A stretch of 34,400 bases of DNA from positions 1 through 34,400 of the forward strand of contig DILV01000022.1 in NCBI GenBank assembly GCA_002425225.1, written 5' to 3'. The notes under the pieces were generated by a model. That model worked only from the letters and a program-made list of their open reading frames with translations, searched no databases and was not told where the DNA came from. Both the position numbers and the translations under genes were made by a program. Below, one piece after another: positions 27,372-34,244 of the stretch (its first letter is position 1; each line of letters opens with the position of its first letter). Source of the DNA: Thiothrix sp. UBA5583. GTDB taxonomy: Bacteria > Pseudomonadota > Gammaproteobacteria > Thiotrichales > Thiotrichaceae.

Positions 27372-27902
27372 ATGAAATTGTACAAGGCATTTTATGCTGT
27401 TTGGCTATTTGTATTGGCGCTGTTGGTGTCGGGCTGTGTCGGTGTGCCTGATGGGGTAACGCCTGTGACCGGATTTGAGGTTAACCGCTATCTGGGTAAA
27501 TGGTATGAAATCGCCCGGCTTGACCATTCCTTTGAGCGAGGTTTGGAGCAGGTAACGGCAGAATACAGCCCTCGTGACGATGGCGATATTCGCGTCCTCA
27601 ACCGGGGCTACAATACAGCCAAACAGCAATGGCAGGAGGCGGAAGGTCGCGCCAGATTTGTCGGCTCAAAGGATGTAGGGCAACTGAAAGTATCGTTTTT
27701 TGGCCCGTTTTACGGTGGTTACAATATTGTGGAGCTGGATCCGAACTACCAGTACGTCATGATTGTGGGCAATGATCGAGATTACTTGTGGATTTTGTCG
27801 CGTACACCGCAACTGGATGTAGCTGTGCAGCAGCGTTTGGTAGACAAGGCGAAAAGCCTTGGTTTTGCTACAGAAAAGCTGATTTTCGTGAAACAGGATT
27901 GA
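27372..27902 (+). CDS. Blc-type outer-membrane lipocalin lipoprotein
   Basis: A 176-residue bacterial lipocalin. The lipoprotein signal ends LALLVSGC (lipidated Cys22). The lipocalin signature NRYLGKWYEIARLDHSFERGLEQVTAEYS follows, and the C-terminal DRDYLWILSRTPQL strand pair is typical. Blc binds lysophospholipids and fatty acids. Lipocalin genes recur in light-induced clusters with CFA-like and folE genes, which agrees with the context here. Downstream is the restriction-modification insertion. Confidence 0.92.
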   Translation: MKLYKAFYAVWLFVLALLVSGCVGVPDGVTPVTGFEVNRYLGKWYEIARLDHSFERGLEQVTAEYSPRDDGDIRVLNRGYNTAKQQWQEAEGRARFVGSKDVGQLKVSFFGPFYGGYNIVELDPNYQYVMIVGNDRDYLWILSRTPQLDVAVQQRLVDKAKSLGFATEKLIFVKQD

Positions 27903-27915
27903 AGGGCGGGAGGTT

Positions 27916-27974
27916 TTATTTCTCTATCGCTTGCAACCACATCTCCAACGCTGCCATGTGCCACAGTTTGCTGC
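27916..27974 (-). pseudogene. Detached 3'-terminal fragment of the asparagine-synthase-family gene
   Basis: On the minus strand this fragment reads in frame [18 protein letters not shown] and then TAA. It matches the last codons of the intact gene at 29766-31541 ([21 protein letters not shown]), with the same number of codons to the stop. It has no start and no upstream coding sequence. It is the displaced original tail, or the remains of a deleted second copy. Confidence 0.85.
27932..27974 (+). repeat. 43-bp direct repeat, left copy (R-M cassette boundary)
   Basis: Identical over 43 bp to 29782-29824. Bases on either side differ. The repeat is the segment coding the near C-terminal residues of the asparagine-synthase-family protein. 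Confidence 0.95.
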
Positions 27975-27981
27975 ATAGATA

Positions 27982-28036
27982 GCTTGGGTTTCCGTGCCCG
28001 TCTTGTTAAGCTGGACAAGAGAACTTAACCCAAAGC
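27982..28036 (+). promoter_or_regulatory. Inverted repeats in the restriction gene leader
   Basis: GCTTGGGTT (27982-27990) pairs with AACCCAAAGC (28027-28036) apart from one bulged base. Inside it, CTTGT/ACAAG (28002-28006 with 28015-28019) and GTTAAG/CTTAAC (28005-28010 with 28024-28029) are overlapping, mutually exclusive stems. The region directly precedes the restriction gene ATG at 28046, which lacks a clear Shine-Dalgarno. A regulatory leader or operator is plausible. Confidence 0.4.
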
Positions 28037-28045
28037 AGTAGCCAA

Positions 28046-28876
28046 ATGGATCATAAGCAAGAGTTCCGCGCAAAATTAGCCACGTTCGTTAGTAGTCTCC
28101 AGCAGCACGTCAGTACGGAAAATGGACAGTGGACGGTCAAGGGATTTATCGACGTATTCCAGAACGTCTACACAATTTCATCTGACACCAAGATCGTTTC
28201 CAAGATATTGGAAATTCACTTGTTCCCAAAAATTCTACAGTTTGCGCAAGACAACGGCTATCGTGTGGTGTTGGCTGACCACCAGAATTACTACCCGGAT
28301 ATTTCTTTCGTCAAAACGGATGATGAAAGCGTCAAATTTGCCGTTGATTTCAAGACAACTTACCGCAACCCCAAAAAGCCGCATTTGTGTAACGGTTTCA
28401 CATTGGGTTCGCACGGAACTTACTTCGAGAACCGCCAAAGTACCAAAAACATCCAGTTTCCCTATGGCTCGTATACGGGGCATTTCTGCCTTGGCATCAT
28501 CTACGATAGAGCAGAAGGCGCAACGATAGACGAAACCCGTTCCCATCGGCTGGATGAATTGCAGTCCATCGCTTCAGTGGTCAAAAATTTCCAGTTTTTC
28601 GTAGTAGAAAAATGGCAAATCGCCAGTGATAAAGGCGGCAGCGGCAATACCGCCAATATCGGCAGCATCAATAATATCGACGACATTATCAACGGGCGCG
28701 GCATGTTTTCCCGTTTGGGAGAAAGTTGGTTTGACGATTATTGGATGAACTATTGCAAAATTATTGTGCAAAACGAGCAAGGTATTACCAACAAAATTTC
28801 GACGCTGAAAGCTTTTGTTGCTTATCGCGGTGGTGATGTTTCGCTGGTAGTCGACAAACAGAATGGTGGGGAATGA
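28046..28876 (+). CDS. EcoRV-like type II restriction endonuclease (predicted GATATC)
   Basis: A 276-residue homologue of EcoRV. The catalytic PD...DxK motif appears as YYPDISF then [12 protein letters not shown], matching HYPDFTL and AIDIKTTYTN of EcoRV. The following FTLGS and [23 protein letters not shown] match EcoRV's GGY and TKNIVYPFDQYIAHW. The recognition loop [11 protein letters not shown] corresponds to GSGNTTNIGSI, differing at one Thr to Ala. GATATC specificity is therefore likely. The product is about 30 residues longer than EcoRV, chiefly at the N-terminus and at the C-terminal tail. It overlaps the methyltransferase by 4 bp; no control (C) gene is present. Confidence 0.9.
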
Positions 28877-29769
28877 TAGCAATGAAAGTCAGCGTTCCCC
28901 CAATCAAATCTCAAGGCATTAAAACCAAACTTGTGCCTTGGATCAAAAACATTATTCCCGTTAATTTTGAGGGGCGGTGGGTTGAGCCATTTATGGGGAC
29001 TGGCGTTGTGGCTTTTAACCTTACTCCGCAACAGGCTTTGTTGTGTGATACTAATCCGCATTTGGTTAACTTTTATTCTTGCCTTGCAAAAGGCGTGATT
29101 ACGTCTGAAAGTGTCCGCGTTTATTTGAATAGAGAAGGGGCTTTGCTGCTGGAAAAGGGCGAAGTGCATTACTATGAAATCCGCGAACGCTTTAATCAAT
29201 ACCATGCACCTTTGGACTTTCTGTTTTTGAACCGCGCCGGATTTAACGGCATGATCCGTTTTAATCGGAAGGGTGAGTTCAATATTCCATTTTGTCGTAA
29301 ACCGCAGCGATTTGCCCAAGCCTATGTGACCAAAATCGTGAATCAGGTCGATGCCGTTGCGAAAATCTTGCACACCAAGCAGTTTGAGTTTAAATGCCAG
29401 GATTTTACTAAAACACTCCAGGAAGTGTCGGCGGATGACATTGTGTATTGTGATCCGCCGTATATTGATCGCCATGTGGATTATTACAACGGATGGGATG
29501 AGCTTCAGGAACATCGCCTTCATGCTGCGCTGGAAAAACTGGATGGCAAATTCATCCTTTCCACTTGGCATCACAATGATTTTCGGGAAAATACCTACAT
29601 CAAGTCACTGTGGGGCAAGTTTAACGTGCTGACACGGGAGCATTTCTACCATGTCGGCGCGAGTGAAGATAATCGCAATCCCATGATTGAGGCATTAGTG
29701 ACAAACTACGATCCGTCCGCTGATGAGCAAAAGGTAGAGGCGTTTCAGCAATTTGCGTTGTTGGGTTAA
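28873..29769 (+). CDS. Dam-class N6-adenine DNA methyltransferase (M.EcoRV-like)
   Basis: A 298-residue D12-class adenine methyltransferase. The SAM motif is [15 protein letters not shown] near residue 36, and the catalytic DPPY follows [11 protein letters not shown] near residue 197. It is paired with the EcoRV-like nuclease, so it should protect GATATC sites. The start ATG overlaps the nuclease stop (ATGA); [10 protein letters not shown] three codons in is an alternative. Its stop overlaps the stop of the convergent asparagine-synthase-family gene by 4 bp (29766-29769) in the palindrome GGTTTAACC. Confidence 0.93.
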
Positions 29770-31541
29770 ACCTTGACGCTCTGCAACCACATCTCCAACG
29801 CTGCCATGTGCCACAGTTTGCTGCCTTGAATCCGCGTCAAATGCGCTTCGGGGTTGGCGATCACCTTGTCGATATAGCTACGCTGATACAAACCACGTTC
29901 GCGGCAGGTTTGCGAATCCAGCAAATCCCGCATCATTTCCAGAAATTCGCCACGCACAAACTTCAAGGCAGGCACGGGGAAATACCCCTTGGGGCGGTCA
30001 ATCACGCTATCTGGCACTAGTCCTCGCGCAATCTGTTTCAGCACGTATTTGCCGCCATCGCGCAATTTCAATTCGGTCGGCATTTGCGCAGCCAGTTCCA
30101 CCAGTTCGTGATCGAGGAACGGTACACGCGCTTCCAGTCCCCATGCCATTGTCATGTTATCCACGCGCTTGACCGGATCATCGGCGATGAAAGTCGTCAC
30201 GTCGGCACGTAATACCGCATCCAGCGTTTCTTCCGCATCGGGTGATTCCAGCAATTCGCGCACCAGTTCGCCGGTATAGTCGCGGGTTTGGAACGGGGTT
30301 TGCAACATTTCCGCCATCTCGCGGTGGTCGCGGTCGAAATAATACGGGGCGAGGCGTTGCAATTTGTCGGGATGGGTGGATGCGTGGGCTTGCGGATACC
30401 AGAAATAGCCACCAAACACTTCATCCGCGCCTTGCCCGGATTGCACCACTTTCACATGCTTTGACACCTGTTCGGAGAGCAGGTAGAAACCAATCGCATC
30501 CTGCCCGAACATCGGTTCTGCCATGTTCGCCACCGCTTCCGGTAGGCGCAGCAAGGTCTGTTCGTTGGGGATGTGGAACTTGTGGTGGGTGGGGCGGAAG
30601 CGTTCCACCACCGCGTCGGAATATTCGTATTCGCTGCCTTTTTCTTCCGGCTGGTCGTCAAAACCGATGGTGAAGGTGCGGATGTCTTGGATGCCGATTT
30701 CAGCCAATAAGCCGACCAATAGACTTGAATCCAGCCCGCCCGACAGCAGCACGCCCACGGGTACATCGGCAATATTATTGCGGCGGTGCACGGCGGTTTT
30801 CAGCGATTCGTGTACGGCGTCGATCCATTCCTGTTCGGAACGCGGCTCGCTTGGGCGACGTGCTACCAAATTCCAGTAACGTTTCAGCTCTTGCCGCCCG
30901 TCCATGTGAATGGTCAGGGAATGCGCGGGTTGCAGCTTACGGATGCCATTCAGCACCGTGCGCGGTGCTGGCACGACTGCGTGCAGCGAAAACAGGTTGT
31001 GCAGCGCCAGCGGGTCGAGGCTGGTATCAATCCCCGACGTGGTCAGCAAGGCTTGCGTGTTGGAGGCAAAGCGGAAACTTTTACCAGCGGTGGCGTAGTA
31101 CAGCGGCTTGATACCCATGCGGTCACGCGCTATGAACAGCACTTTTTTGCGCATGTCCCAAATCGCGAAAGCGAACATTCCCAGCAAATGCTTGGGCGCG
31201 TCTTCGCCCCATTCGGCGTAGGCTTTGAGGATAACTTCGGTATCGCCTTCGGAGAAGAAATGATGCCCGCGAGCCTTCAGTTCCGCCCGCAATTCGGGGT
31301 GGTTGTAGATCGTGCCGTTGAATACCAGTGCCAAGCCGGATTCGATGTCCACCATCGGCTGGCTGGATTTGTACGACAGGTCAATGATGGCAAGGCGGCG
31401 ATGCCCGAACGCCAGCGCACCATCAGAAAAGCTGCCCGCGTGATCGGGGCCGCGCTTTTCCAGCTTTGCCATCATGCTGTTGAGGTATTTTAGTTCGGGG
31501 AGTTGCCCGTCGAGGCGTAGTTCACCGCAAATGCCGCACAT
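29766..31541 (-). CDS. asnB: Asparagine-synthase-family glutamine amidotransferase (NAGGN amidotransferase-like)
   Basis: A 591-residue two-domain enzyme. N-terminal class II glutaminase: the nucleophile is Cys2 ([10 protein letters not shown]), with [11 protein letters not shown] and [15 protein letters not shown]-terminal synthase: the ATP PP-loop is [16 protein letters not shown], followed by [42 protein letters not shown] and overall length resemble N-acetylglutaminylglutamine amidotransferases (an osmolyte pathway) more than housekeeping AsnB; this is from memory of the family. Its usual partner, a GNAT/ATP-grasp synthetase, is not next to it. The last codons derive from the inserted cassette side of the 43-bp repeat. 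AAGGA precedes the ATG, which lies 12 bp after an AT-rich foreign gene. Confidence 0.88.
29782..29824 (+). repeat. 43-bp direct repeat, right copy (inside asnB 3' end)
   Basis: Identical to 27932-27974. It lies within the last 20 codons of the asparagine-synthase-family gene, which stays open because the sequence beyond the repeat supplies a new tail and stop. Confidence 0.95.
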
Positions 31542-31553
31542 GGGAGTTCCTTG

Positions 31554-34244
31554 TTACCCGTTAAACATCTTCCATGCAGTGTGCCACAAATTGGTGAGCA
31601 AATCTAAAAGACCATAATGCAGAATAAAGTAGGTTGTAATGAAAACAATGATTATGAAGCATATAATCAATAAAACTTTCTTGCCAAAATCCATCAATAA
31701 TATTGTGGGGATATTTTTATGTTTTAAAAGGGCATTATTTACTTGGCCTAATAAAGCTTTTTCAAAGCGACTCTGACTACGCTTAATTGCATCAATATCA
31801 CTAGTGTAGTCAAAAGTTGCAGCCATTTTGATCTCTGCCAATGCCTTTACTTCCAGTTCTTGACATGCTGTTATGACTTTGTTTAAATCCTTGGCAATAT
31901 TATTCGAGGATTCAATAATATTCAAACTATTCCTACCTTGTTCAATAGTCGCCGAATTAACAACATCATGCAACTTATTGATCTCGCGATGAATTAAGTC
32001 AATTATTTCGCTCTTATATTTGCCAGTCAAATCAAGCTCGTGAATTTTATCTAGTATGCGTAATTCCGAAGATTTCAAAAACTCTAAAACTTCATCTTTA
32101 TCAGTTCTTAATTTAGCCTGATACTGTGAAAGTACATCTATGCTTTCCTGGACGTCTTTGTTAATTAATAACAATCCTTCTTGCTCATGTGCAACCAGCA
32201 CTTTAAGGCTATCTTCTGACCTTTTTATGTATTTTTCAGCATCATGAGCTGCTGCATTTATCTTACTTAAACCGGAATTCATTGTTTCAATCGGTTCTTC
32301 GATGATTGATATGAGTTCAGCACGGGTTTTGTCATCTATATGAATTTCATACTTTTCTTGAATGCTGCTAAGTTGTTTATTTAATGCATTGTTAAAAATA
32401 TCGAGTTTTGAAATATTTTCATTAATTAATATCGTATCAAGATTGTGAGATCTATTTTGATTGATTTGCAGATCGACCTTTGCACTCAAGGATTTTAGAG
32501 GGTTTTCCAAACCACTAATGGTTTTCTTTCTTTTATTCTCTTCTAATTTTATATGATAAATATCATCATAGACAGTACCTAGCATTCGACTAACTTCTTC
32601 CAATGTCCTCTTAGTGTTCTGATCCTCTTGATCTTTAATGATTTGCACGGCTTTTTTGTTTGCGCTTTCTTTTATACTTTCAAAATTAATACTATCATCT
32701 ATTACAATCTCATCTAATTGCTGCTTAATCGCTCCCATCATTAAAGCATTGCTCTGCGTCTGAGGATAACTTGAAAGCAAATAAAAGGCTACATGCAGAA
32801 AGTATAGTGTTTTTTCTTTATATCCAAGACTTAAATAAAACTCTCCTAGCTCATGATATTTATATGGTTCTCTTAAAACGTGATTACCTTCATACGCCAA
32901 CTCTAGTTTTTCCAAGTATTTTTCTTTTTCTTGTTCTATTAAAGTCTGATCACCTTCGCATTTTATTATGTCTAGTATCGCATTCTTAATCTTTGCTATC
33001 TTAATGCTCAAATCATTTTCCATACTTATCAAACTTTCATGAAAGTCAATTGTTTCCTCAAGAGATACTAGCAGTGTTTGCTCTATGTTTTCAAAGTTGT
33101 TAGTACGTCTGGCTTTTTCCAAAATAAAAGCCTGTTCGTGCTCTGGATTTAAGTTGATTGCCCTTTTAAATAAGGCAGTAGTAGTTCGCCTAGATTTATT
33201 TTTGTGGGCAATAACCGCAAGATAAGCGTACAAGTAAGACAGGGCAATAGATCGCTGTTCTATTTCCTTATGAATTTTTCTAAGTTTATCCGCGTTTTCT
33301 TGTATTAAAGAGCCGTCTAGAAAATCATTATCAAAGATATAAGGCGTGAGTTCAATCCCGAATTTATCCTTTATAGATTTATTGTAAGCCAAGGCATTGT
33401 TTCTTATCTTATCCTTGAAGAAGTCGAGATTTGAAAAGTCATCAAAGTTTAGACTTTCATTATCTATTACAACTTTTGTATTGATGCTTACCGGATATCT
33501 TTCAGAGTGATTATTGGTGATAATTTCATTTATTTCATCAGTAAATGTATCAAGGCGTGTGCATAAAAAGGTATTTGGCTCAAGCACACCAAACTGTATG
33601 TGACTTAAATTTAATTTTCCATCGCGTTCTTGAATAAAAGTTCCTGCACCTGATATTCCTTGCATGGACGCTACAATGTTTCCCATTGACAAAACCGGAC
33701 TACTTTTGCAAAGCATTTTTGTGTGCCCGCTTTCATCAAATTGATGGTGCTGAACAATATATGGAGTTAGCTTGCTTATTTGCTCAACATTTTTTGTTAT
33801 CCTAGGATAGCCTGAGATGAAGAAATTCTTTGAGGAGTAGTTATTATTATCTAAATCAAAGAACTCTAGCGTGCTTACTTCTTTTTCAATTTTTGTTTCT
33901 GATGCTGGAAGTATGATAAGTCCAATATCCACTTTTTTATTAGCTAAAAAGCGAACAGTAATATTTGAGCAGATGATGTTGTCCTCTGGATACGCCTCAA
34001 TAAACACAAAGATATTATCTTTGTTTATGTTTATAGAGTTTTCTGCAAACAATCCATATTCTATAGCCATCTTTTTATTTTTTGGGAAAAATATGTGTTT
34101 CGCAGTCAAGATATAATATGCCTGGTCTTTTTCATGAGACTTAAATATCACCCCGCTCCCTTGAGAAAATACACGTTCATCGTCCTCATTCTCGTAATAG
34201 TATTCTATTTTAATGGCATATTTTTTCACTGCATCACTAGACAT
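31554..34244 (-). CDS. Trypsin-like protease, coiled-coil, membrane-anchored protein (putative defence)
   Basis: An 896-residue AT-rich gene product with no family name I can give. Residues 1-230 look like a trypsin-fold serine protease: GSGVIF, then LTAKH (His50), KVDIGLIIL (Asp106) and GISGAG (Ser198) give a plausible complete catalytic triad. Residues about 330-520 are helical and TPR-like (YLYAYLAVIAHKNKS; ALFKRAINLNPEHEQAFILE; YHELGEFYLSLGYKEKTLYFL). Residues about 530-850 are long charged coiled coils. A single membrane helix lies near residues 857-880 (VLLIICFIIIVFITTYFIL), followed by a short tail. There is no signal peptide, so the protease should be cytoplasmic, tethered by its C-terminus. 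A GGAAAG ribosome site sits 11 bp after an upstream partial gene. Confidence 0.72.
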   Translation of the reverse strand: MSSDAVKKYAIKIEYYYENEDDERVFSQGSGVIFKSHEKDQAYYILTAKHIFFPKNKKMAIEYGLFAENSININKDNIFVFIEAYPEDNIICSNITVRFLANKKVDIGLIILPASETKIEKEVSTLEFFDLDNNNYSSKNFFISGYPRITKNVEQISKLTPYIVQHHQFDESGHTKMLCKSSPVLSMGNIVASMQGISGAGTFIQERDGKLNLSHIQFGVLEPNTFLCTRLDTFTDEINEIITNNHSERYPVSINTKVVIDNESLNFDDFSNLDFFKDKIRNNALAYNKSIKDKFGIELTPYIFDNDFLDGSLIQENADKLRKIHKEIEQRSIALSYLYAYLAVIAHKNKSRRTTTALFKRAINLNPEHEQAFILEKARRTNNFENIEQTLLVSLEETIDFHESLISMENDLSIKIAKIKNAILDIIKCEGDQTLIEQEKEKYLEKLELAYEGNHVLREPYKYHELGEFYLSLGYKEKTLYFLHVAFYLLSSYPQTQSNALMMGAIKQQLDEIVIDDSINFESIKESANKKAVQIIKDQEDQNTKRTLEEVSRMLGTVYDDIYHIKLEENKRKKTISGLENPLKSLSAKVDLQINQNRSHNLDTILINENISKLDIFNNALNKQLSSIQEKYEIHIDDKTRAELISIIEEPIETMNSGLSKINAAAHDAEKYIKRSEDSLKVLVAHEQEGLLLINKDVQESIDVLSQYQAKLRTDKDEVLEFLKSSELRILDKIHELDLTGKYKSEIIDLIHREINKLHDVVNSATIEQGRNSLNIIESSNNIAKDLNKVITACQELEVKALAEIKMAATFDYTSDIDAIKRSQSRFEKALLGQVNNALLKHKNIPTILLMDFGKKVLLIICFIIIVFITTYFILHYGLLDLLTNLWHTAWKMFNG

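Follow-up and report, generated by a model that had tools for sequence, protein, structure and literature searches.

An EcoRV-like restriction-modification pair at the 3' end of asnB suggests a recurrent, integrase-free entry point for short modules in Thiothrix

In Thiothrix sp. UBA5583, an EcoRV-type restriction-modification (R-M) pair lies at the 3' end of the asparagine synthase gene asnB, between two copies of a 43-bp sequence, and we lean towards the view that in this genus short modules, a number of which are defence genes, repeatedly enter at this end of asnB. The stretch of DNA analysed (the window) is contig DILV01000022.1 of assembly GCA_002425225.1, 34,400 nucleotides long and the entire contig of a 42-contig draft; it was compared within a set of 16 genus genomes (G000 to G015, G000 being the genome of the window), a sample that holds no near relative of G000. 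We observe a recurrent site, an asnB tail linked to the R-M genes, stacking of insertions in G006, no integrase detected nearby, low R-M divergence of G000 from the other carriers and signs of exchange in asnB. The explanation we favour, with moderate confidence, is an integrase-free hotspot in which modules enter through homologous recombination in asnB and bring a new tail to the gene.

The gateway gene asnB (29766-31541, minus strand, 591 aa; PF00733, E 3.7e-86; PF13537, E 3.5e-45) contains the inner repeat copy (29782-29824, minus), and the outer copy lies at 27932-27974 (minus). These 43 nt are identical and form the first part of a longer direct repeat (27932-27979 and 29782-29829; 48 nt, 96% identity). 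The inner copy continues into WLQ-SVKV-stop (tail at 29766-29780, minus), the ending that asnB now uses, and the outer copy into WLQ-AIEK-stop (27916-27930, minus). Between them lie the left edge of the cassette (27975-28045, plus), about where homology with G001, G004 and G006 starts, followed by the R gene (28046-28876, plus, 276 aa; PF09233, E 4.8e-119), encoding an EcoRV-type restriction endonuclease, and the M gene (28873-29769, plus, 298 aa; PF02086, E 3.5e-49; PADLOC MTase_II, E 2.3e-136), encoding a D12-class N6-adenine DNA methyltransferase. The stop codons of M and of asnB, on opposite strands, share one TTAA. A perfect repeat around the cassette, two in-frame asnB endings and a cassette free of any recombinase gene had all been proposed in a preliminary description, and each holds. 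The 43-bp sequence occurs at just these two sites in its own genome; with up to 3 mismatches allowed, 14 of the 16 genomes have one copy, the normal end of asnB, and two (G000 and G006) have two.

The same R gene is present in five of the 16 genus genomes (G000, G001, G004, G006 and G007), the only full-length matches among 63 genomes of the family, a sixth match being a fragment of 31 positions. Four of the five carriers have the R-M pair at the asnB 3' end, in one orientation and with a common left edge, yet in three downstream contexts: the distal neighbour is blc in G000, tatD in G001 and G006, and in G004 a DUF4143 AAA-ATPase, a transposase-like open reading frame (ORF) and a sigma-54-type regulator (tatD, the regulator and the transposase-like ORFs were named by eye, without a family search). 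The blc-like lipocalin gene (27372-27902, plus; PF08212, E 2e-43) adjoins the cassette in G000 only; the 11 other genus genomes that match it have it at different places, followed by different DNA. In the fifth carrier, G007, the pair is away from asnB, with protein identities to G000 of 87% (R) and 85% (M), and the DNA after M looks unrelated. Among 79 R loci from outside the genus, many of which end early at contig ends, a single one (L076, Chromatium) matched asnB within the flank, at a non-adjacent position about 4.4 kb distant, and the 12 plasmid records retrieved all fell below 60% identity.

Two genomes that lack the R-M genes and have a single target copy show the asnB end as it stands without the pair. 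G013, whose tatD is close to that of G004, has asnB ending in SQGV and then directly the regulator. The match of G004 to this sequence breaks off 13 nt short of the asnB stop and resumes 2 nt beyond the stop, after 3.0 kb of intervening DNA, so that the last ~15 nt of its asnB have been replaced. G010, close to G001, has asnB ending in SQGL, then 57 bp, then tatD; these 57 bp are absent from G001 and G006, where the flank resumes at the end of tatD. More widely, 9 of the 15 other genomes have asnB and tatD as neighbours in convergent orientation, separated by 57 bp to 66.7 kb; in the remaining six and in G000, tatD is elsewhere or differently oriented.

The tails themselves carry part of the argument. 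We compared 30 loci, dropping asnB of G006 for an early frame break, and in all 29 comparable tails, G000 included, WL-x is followed by exactly four residues, the last being L, V or I. The length is thus inherited, and the equal codon length of the SVKV and AIEK endings, which had been read as the pattern of an integrating element, is an ancestral trait and no evidence of integration. AIEK ends in K, unlike the 29 compared tails, and a random frame in six sampled loci meets its first stop at codon 5 with a frequency of 2.9%; AIEK is a poor fit as an asnB tail and may be a chance sequence or an aged tail. The tail of G006 asnB, MNKN, lies after the frame break and is likewise an exception to the L/V/I ending; compared with its aligned relatives, this gene (L045:1830-3598) lacks one base near codon 520, from decay or sequencing error. 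Judged by sequence, SVKV and the LQTL tail of G001 look like tails of donor asnB genes, MNKN less so. In G000, G004 and, within its outer asnB piece, G006, the R-M genes come with SVKV, which bears out the earlier suggestion that the R-M pair is bound to the asnB 3' end and that incoming DNA supplied the current tail.

Under the hotspot explanation, incoming DNA would consist of a module joined to the terminal part of an asnB gene (here SVKV-M-R), and this asnB end would pair with the resident gene through ordinary homologous recombination; the end of asnB would be exchanged and the gene would remain whole with a donor tail. At its other end, the incoming DNA would be joined either through a further crossover, in the flank, or illegitimately. 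For G000 this distal joint would lie within the resident end of asnB, whose last 43 bp would remain, with the DNA that follows, as the outer repeat; it may have been a linear joint, or a circle may have entered through the 43 bp in Campbell fashion. The DNA might have arrived by natural transformation or from another source, and the exchange would presumably depend on RecA.

The anatomy of G000 would fit exactly with a different origin, in which a bare R-M pair entered asnB and duplicated 43 bp of target, SVKV being encoded by the 12 nt beyond M; passages of PMC3874152 report long, variable target duplications, of the order of 100 bp, for some R-M systems. Yet the SVKV-M fusion is common to G004 and G006, which implies that the link of the unit to asnB already existed, a search of G004 gave no second copy, and the 12 nt encoding SVKV were not seen after the M stop in G007, whose copy is off asnB. 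We regard this account as unlikely for G000, although such an insertion is possible as the founding event.

Divergence at fourfold degenerate sites indicates that the R-M genes moved between species. Between G000 and G001, G004 or G006 it is 0.19-0.29 for R and 0.20-0.24 for M, against 0.56-0.67 for tatD and 0.50-0.62 for blc (Fisher p between 4e-4 and 8e-10 for four tested comparisons). Since R and M are far less diverged than tatD and blc, they must have crossed species lines after the split of these genomes. Vertical inheritance of the R-M pair, which we initially favoured because its divergence resembles that of asnB, was rejected for G000 on the same grounds. The pattern is similar for G001 and G004 (R 0.19 and M 0.17 versus tatD 0.38) and for G004 and G006 (R 0.24 and M 0.18 versus tatD 0.32). 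The tatD tree has three well-supported pairs, and R-M presence mapped onto it needs 3 changes; both asnB trees are nearly unresolved.

Signs of exchange are found in asnB as well. We compared positions 1051-1764 of asnB with the flanks in six genome pairs, and the outcome was mixed. Differences in asnB exceed those in the flanks for G001 and G010 (11.9% versus 3.8%, p 1e-17), G006 and G010 (10.7% versus 6.4%, p 1e-4) and G001 and G006 (8.3% versus 5.7%, p 0.008). In G004 and G013 the last 204 nt of asnB rise to 12.7%, and 4 of 111 fourfold sites differ in tatD versus 37 of 234 in asnB (p 6e-4).

Several results weigh against entry by homologous recombination in asnB. Over positions 1051-1764, asnB of G004 and G013 does not differ from the flanks (6.4% versus 7.2%, p 0.53), and G003 and G011 show the opposite direction (asnB 7.6%, flanks 12.3%, p 1e-4). 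The intended control, G012 and G015, has 2.7-3.2% in asnB and 6.4% in its last 204 nt, with just 53 nt of aligned flank. Fourfold divergence between G001 and G006 is not lower for the R-M genes (R 0.12, M 0.19) than for tatD (0.11; blc 0.32), a pair in which tatD adjoins the R-M genes and may have moved along with them. The first 1500 nt of asnB diverge by 0.27-0.28 at fourfold sites between G000 and G001, G004 or G006, and by 0.26-0.28 between G000 and all genomes, carriers or not; this low value may reflect exchange, slow synonymous change or both, the slow-change part being the adverse one. The 3' third of asnB in G000 is not nearer to R-M carriers than to non-carriers, so that co-transfer of asnB into G000 is evident for the tail alone. 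The two 43-bp copies show no difference at all, whereas R and M are 7-10% diverged from those of other carriers, a contrast that calls for an unsampled recent donor or gene conversion. Finally, an empty single-repeat site with the AIEK tail was not found in the genomes compared, among which G000 has no near relative.

An integrase-like mechanism, as suggested in the preliminary description, finds no support in the recombinase search, which covered two families, PF00589 and PF07508, in the 16 genomes. Proteins with PF00589 are present in all 16, but no tyrosine recombinase was found near asnB: among the matches listed, the stronger ones, the nearest PF00589 on an asnB contig is 142 kb away (G014), followed by 172 kb (G013) and 215 kb (the R-M carrier G004), some asnB contigs being short. 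Large serine recombinases (PF07508) occur in 0 of the 16. The outer asnB copy also has no fixed length. It spans 43 bp in G000 and about 440 bp in G006, there set apart by a later insertion; G001 and G006 each have a 13-nt remnant (CACAGTTTACTGC) 2 nt after the tatD stop, 12/13 identical to the end in G000 (14 of 5000 base shuffles score as well); and in G004, at 68% identity over 44 nt, none was found. The variable length counts against a site-specific system, from which a constant core would be expected. A trans-acting recombinase that integrates DNA at the asnB 3' end, with the 43-bp copies as attL and attR, would nevertheless account for the one site and one orientation in four genomes and for the 13-nt asnB-like remnant at the left edge in G001 and G006; by eye, the edges of G000 and G006 also align through the junction. 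The locus has neither a constant core nor, among the families searched, a recombinase in the cassette or close by that would mark an integrase-targeted 3'-end island, and the R-M divergence and the asnB exchange fit homologous recombination; we consider a trans-acting recombinase quite improbable.

Two further accounts concern the origin of the outer copy. A tandem asnB duplication might have gained the R-M genes between its copies and then lost the outer one down to 43 bp, and G006 does retain about 440 bp of a decayed asnB 3' end. This piece is explained by a later insertion, however, and the deletion of a tandem copy, raised in the preliminary description, has no direct support, because none of the loci examined has two full asnB genes. 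Furthermore, 43 bp at 100% identity are too well preserved for a decayed remnant unless converted, and there is little probability in this account. Alternatively, the repeat could be an assembly artefact, the true genome having an empty asnB site with AIEK and a circular or tandem form of the cassette. In favour of this, the window spans the whole of one contig in a draft of 42, but the R-M genes are also found at asnB in G004 and G006, both single-contig assemblies, and we hold an artefact to be very improbable.

G006 shows that insertions at asnB can stack. Its order is asnB with MNKN, the defence genes BnzA/BnzB, the decayed asnB 3' piece ending in SVKV, M, R and tatD, and it resembles a later stage of G000, in which a new tail and cargo have arrived at asnB and the older end has been displaced. 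PADLOC identified BnzB (E 6e-196) and two pieces of BnzA (E 3e-99 and 4e-92), with transposase-like ORFs between (L045:3758-8736); we take the system to be the one named Bunzi. Other genomes carry other cargo. G002 and G011 have a common cassette in two different contexts, an ORF of 188 or 189 aa ending 4 nt from the asnB stop; that of G011 (L037:9405-9974), a candidate defence gene, matches PADLOC PDC-S70 and DUF3368, and that of G002 (L038:7096-7662) is 91% identical to it. G001 has two ORFs of an apparently broken gene, without a Pfam match, between asnB and M, G004 additionally carries a PDC-S01 ATPase, and in G007 a gene 20 nt beyond asnB encodes a 1043-aa protein that matches NACHT weakly (L046:954-4085). 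The first proteins checked in G003, G005, G008, G009, G012, G014 and G015 have other or no matches, including a weak antitoxin match in G008; the second gene in G005 is a DinG-like helicase. Variable cargo thus lies at the edge of a conserved core gene, as in a hotspot, and a bias towards defence genes is suggestive.

The far edge of the DNA behind asnB carries, in some genomes, a 30-bp palindrome able to form a hairpin, GACGATTTCGCAATACACTGCGGAATCGTC in G010. With up to 3 mismatches it has four occurrences in the 16 whole genomes, all at this locus, at the far edge of the post-asnB DNA in G010 (L230), G002 (L229), G011 (L231) and G004 (L228), in three contexts; it is absent at that threshold from the other 12, among them G000, G001 and G006. 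A second, diverged unit adjoins it in G002, G004 and G011, the unit is single in G010, and G003 has a partial one. Its predicted RNA fold is -17.2 kcal/mol in G010 and weaker in G002, G011 and G004, and no T-run is present; it may be the terminator of asnB itself or a docking edge. We doubt, but mention, a more specific model in which the asnB 3' end and this locus-specific palindrome are the two edges of a recombinase-free slot, where units of asnB tail and module (the EcoRV-like R-M pair, BnzA/BnzB or the PDC-S70 nuclease) swap between species and the C-terminus does the docking. Reading the left edge of G001 and G006 as a degenerate palindrome is unsupported, 1364 of 5000 base shuffles being equally good, and the match to the asnB end is better (14 of 5000).

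By its sequence, the cassette is an ordinary EcoRV-like Type II R-M system. R belongs to the EcoRV family, aligning to EcoRV chains of the Protein Data Bank (E 2e-40) with the PD...DxK and recognition-loop segments aligned and conserved, and it is accompanied by the N6-adenine methyltransferase M. The alignment has YPD in common, DFK in the DxK segment and GSGNTTNIGS in the compared recognition-loop segment, residues whose roles in catalysis and recognition we assume from what is known of EcoRV. GATATC is depleted in the sampled loci (rank 16 and 14, counted from 0, of 64 palindromes), and we rejected this as a sign of active R-M, many palindromes being depleted in carriers and non-carriers alike. 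Depletion of several 6-bp palindromes is strong in the genus loci fetched (182 kb from carriers, 260 kb from non-carriers), with or without these R-M genes: CCGCGG was observed 0 times against about 76 and 114 expected (carriers and non-carriers), and CGTACG, GCATGC, CTGCAG and GCCGGC are likewise depleted. Upstream of asnB the window encodes an 896-aa protein (31554-34244, minus) without Pfam or PADLOC match, and pieces related to it occur upstream of asnB in G011, G008 and G030.

The locus offers a compact, testable case of how defence systems can cross species without a mobility enzyme of their own, carried in with the end of a housekeeping gene. A newcomer seems to mark asnB with four tail residues of its own and an older tail can persist downstream, as in G006, so that the locus holds a partly readable record of successive gains, and the turnover of integrase-free hotspots becomes directly testable in one genus. 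A literature search returned no relevant title on restriction-modification in Thiothrix or on asnB integration sites, and the closest parallels come from other systems.

In tRNA islands, integrative elements restore the 3' end of their target gene. The asnB locus is alike in that incoming DNA restores a gene's 3' end and a second copy stands at the far end, and it differs in having no integrase found and no constant core. Insertion of R-M genes with long target duplication was reportedly described by Nobusato in 2000 and Furuta in 2010. There, too, an R-M pair lies between long direct repeats of target sequence, whereas at asnB the pair is found in four species at a single site and with a fused tail, and the outer copy varies in length or is not found. 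Such insertions are referred to in passages of PMC3031569 and PMC3874152. In Oliveira et al. 2017 (PMC5635113), integrase-free hotspots with variable accessory genes beside a core gene are described, and the likeness extends to variable genes at a core gene, no integrase found and signs of recombination in the core gene; at asnB the difference is an edge inside the core gene, whose last codons swap with the cargo, and distal edges that vary. For Vibrio type VI secretion system effector arrays, PMC5361080 proposes displacement by homology-facilitated illegitimate recombination, with a one-sided homology anchor, an illegitimate joint opposite, and older DNA shifted downstream, a stacking like that of G006. 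The effector gene is what is displaced there, whereas at asnB a four-residue housekeeping tail changes and the cargo includes defence genes.

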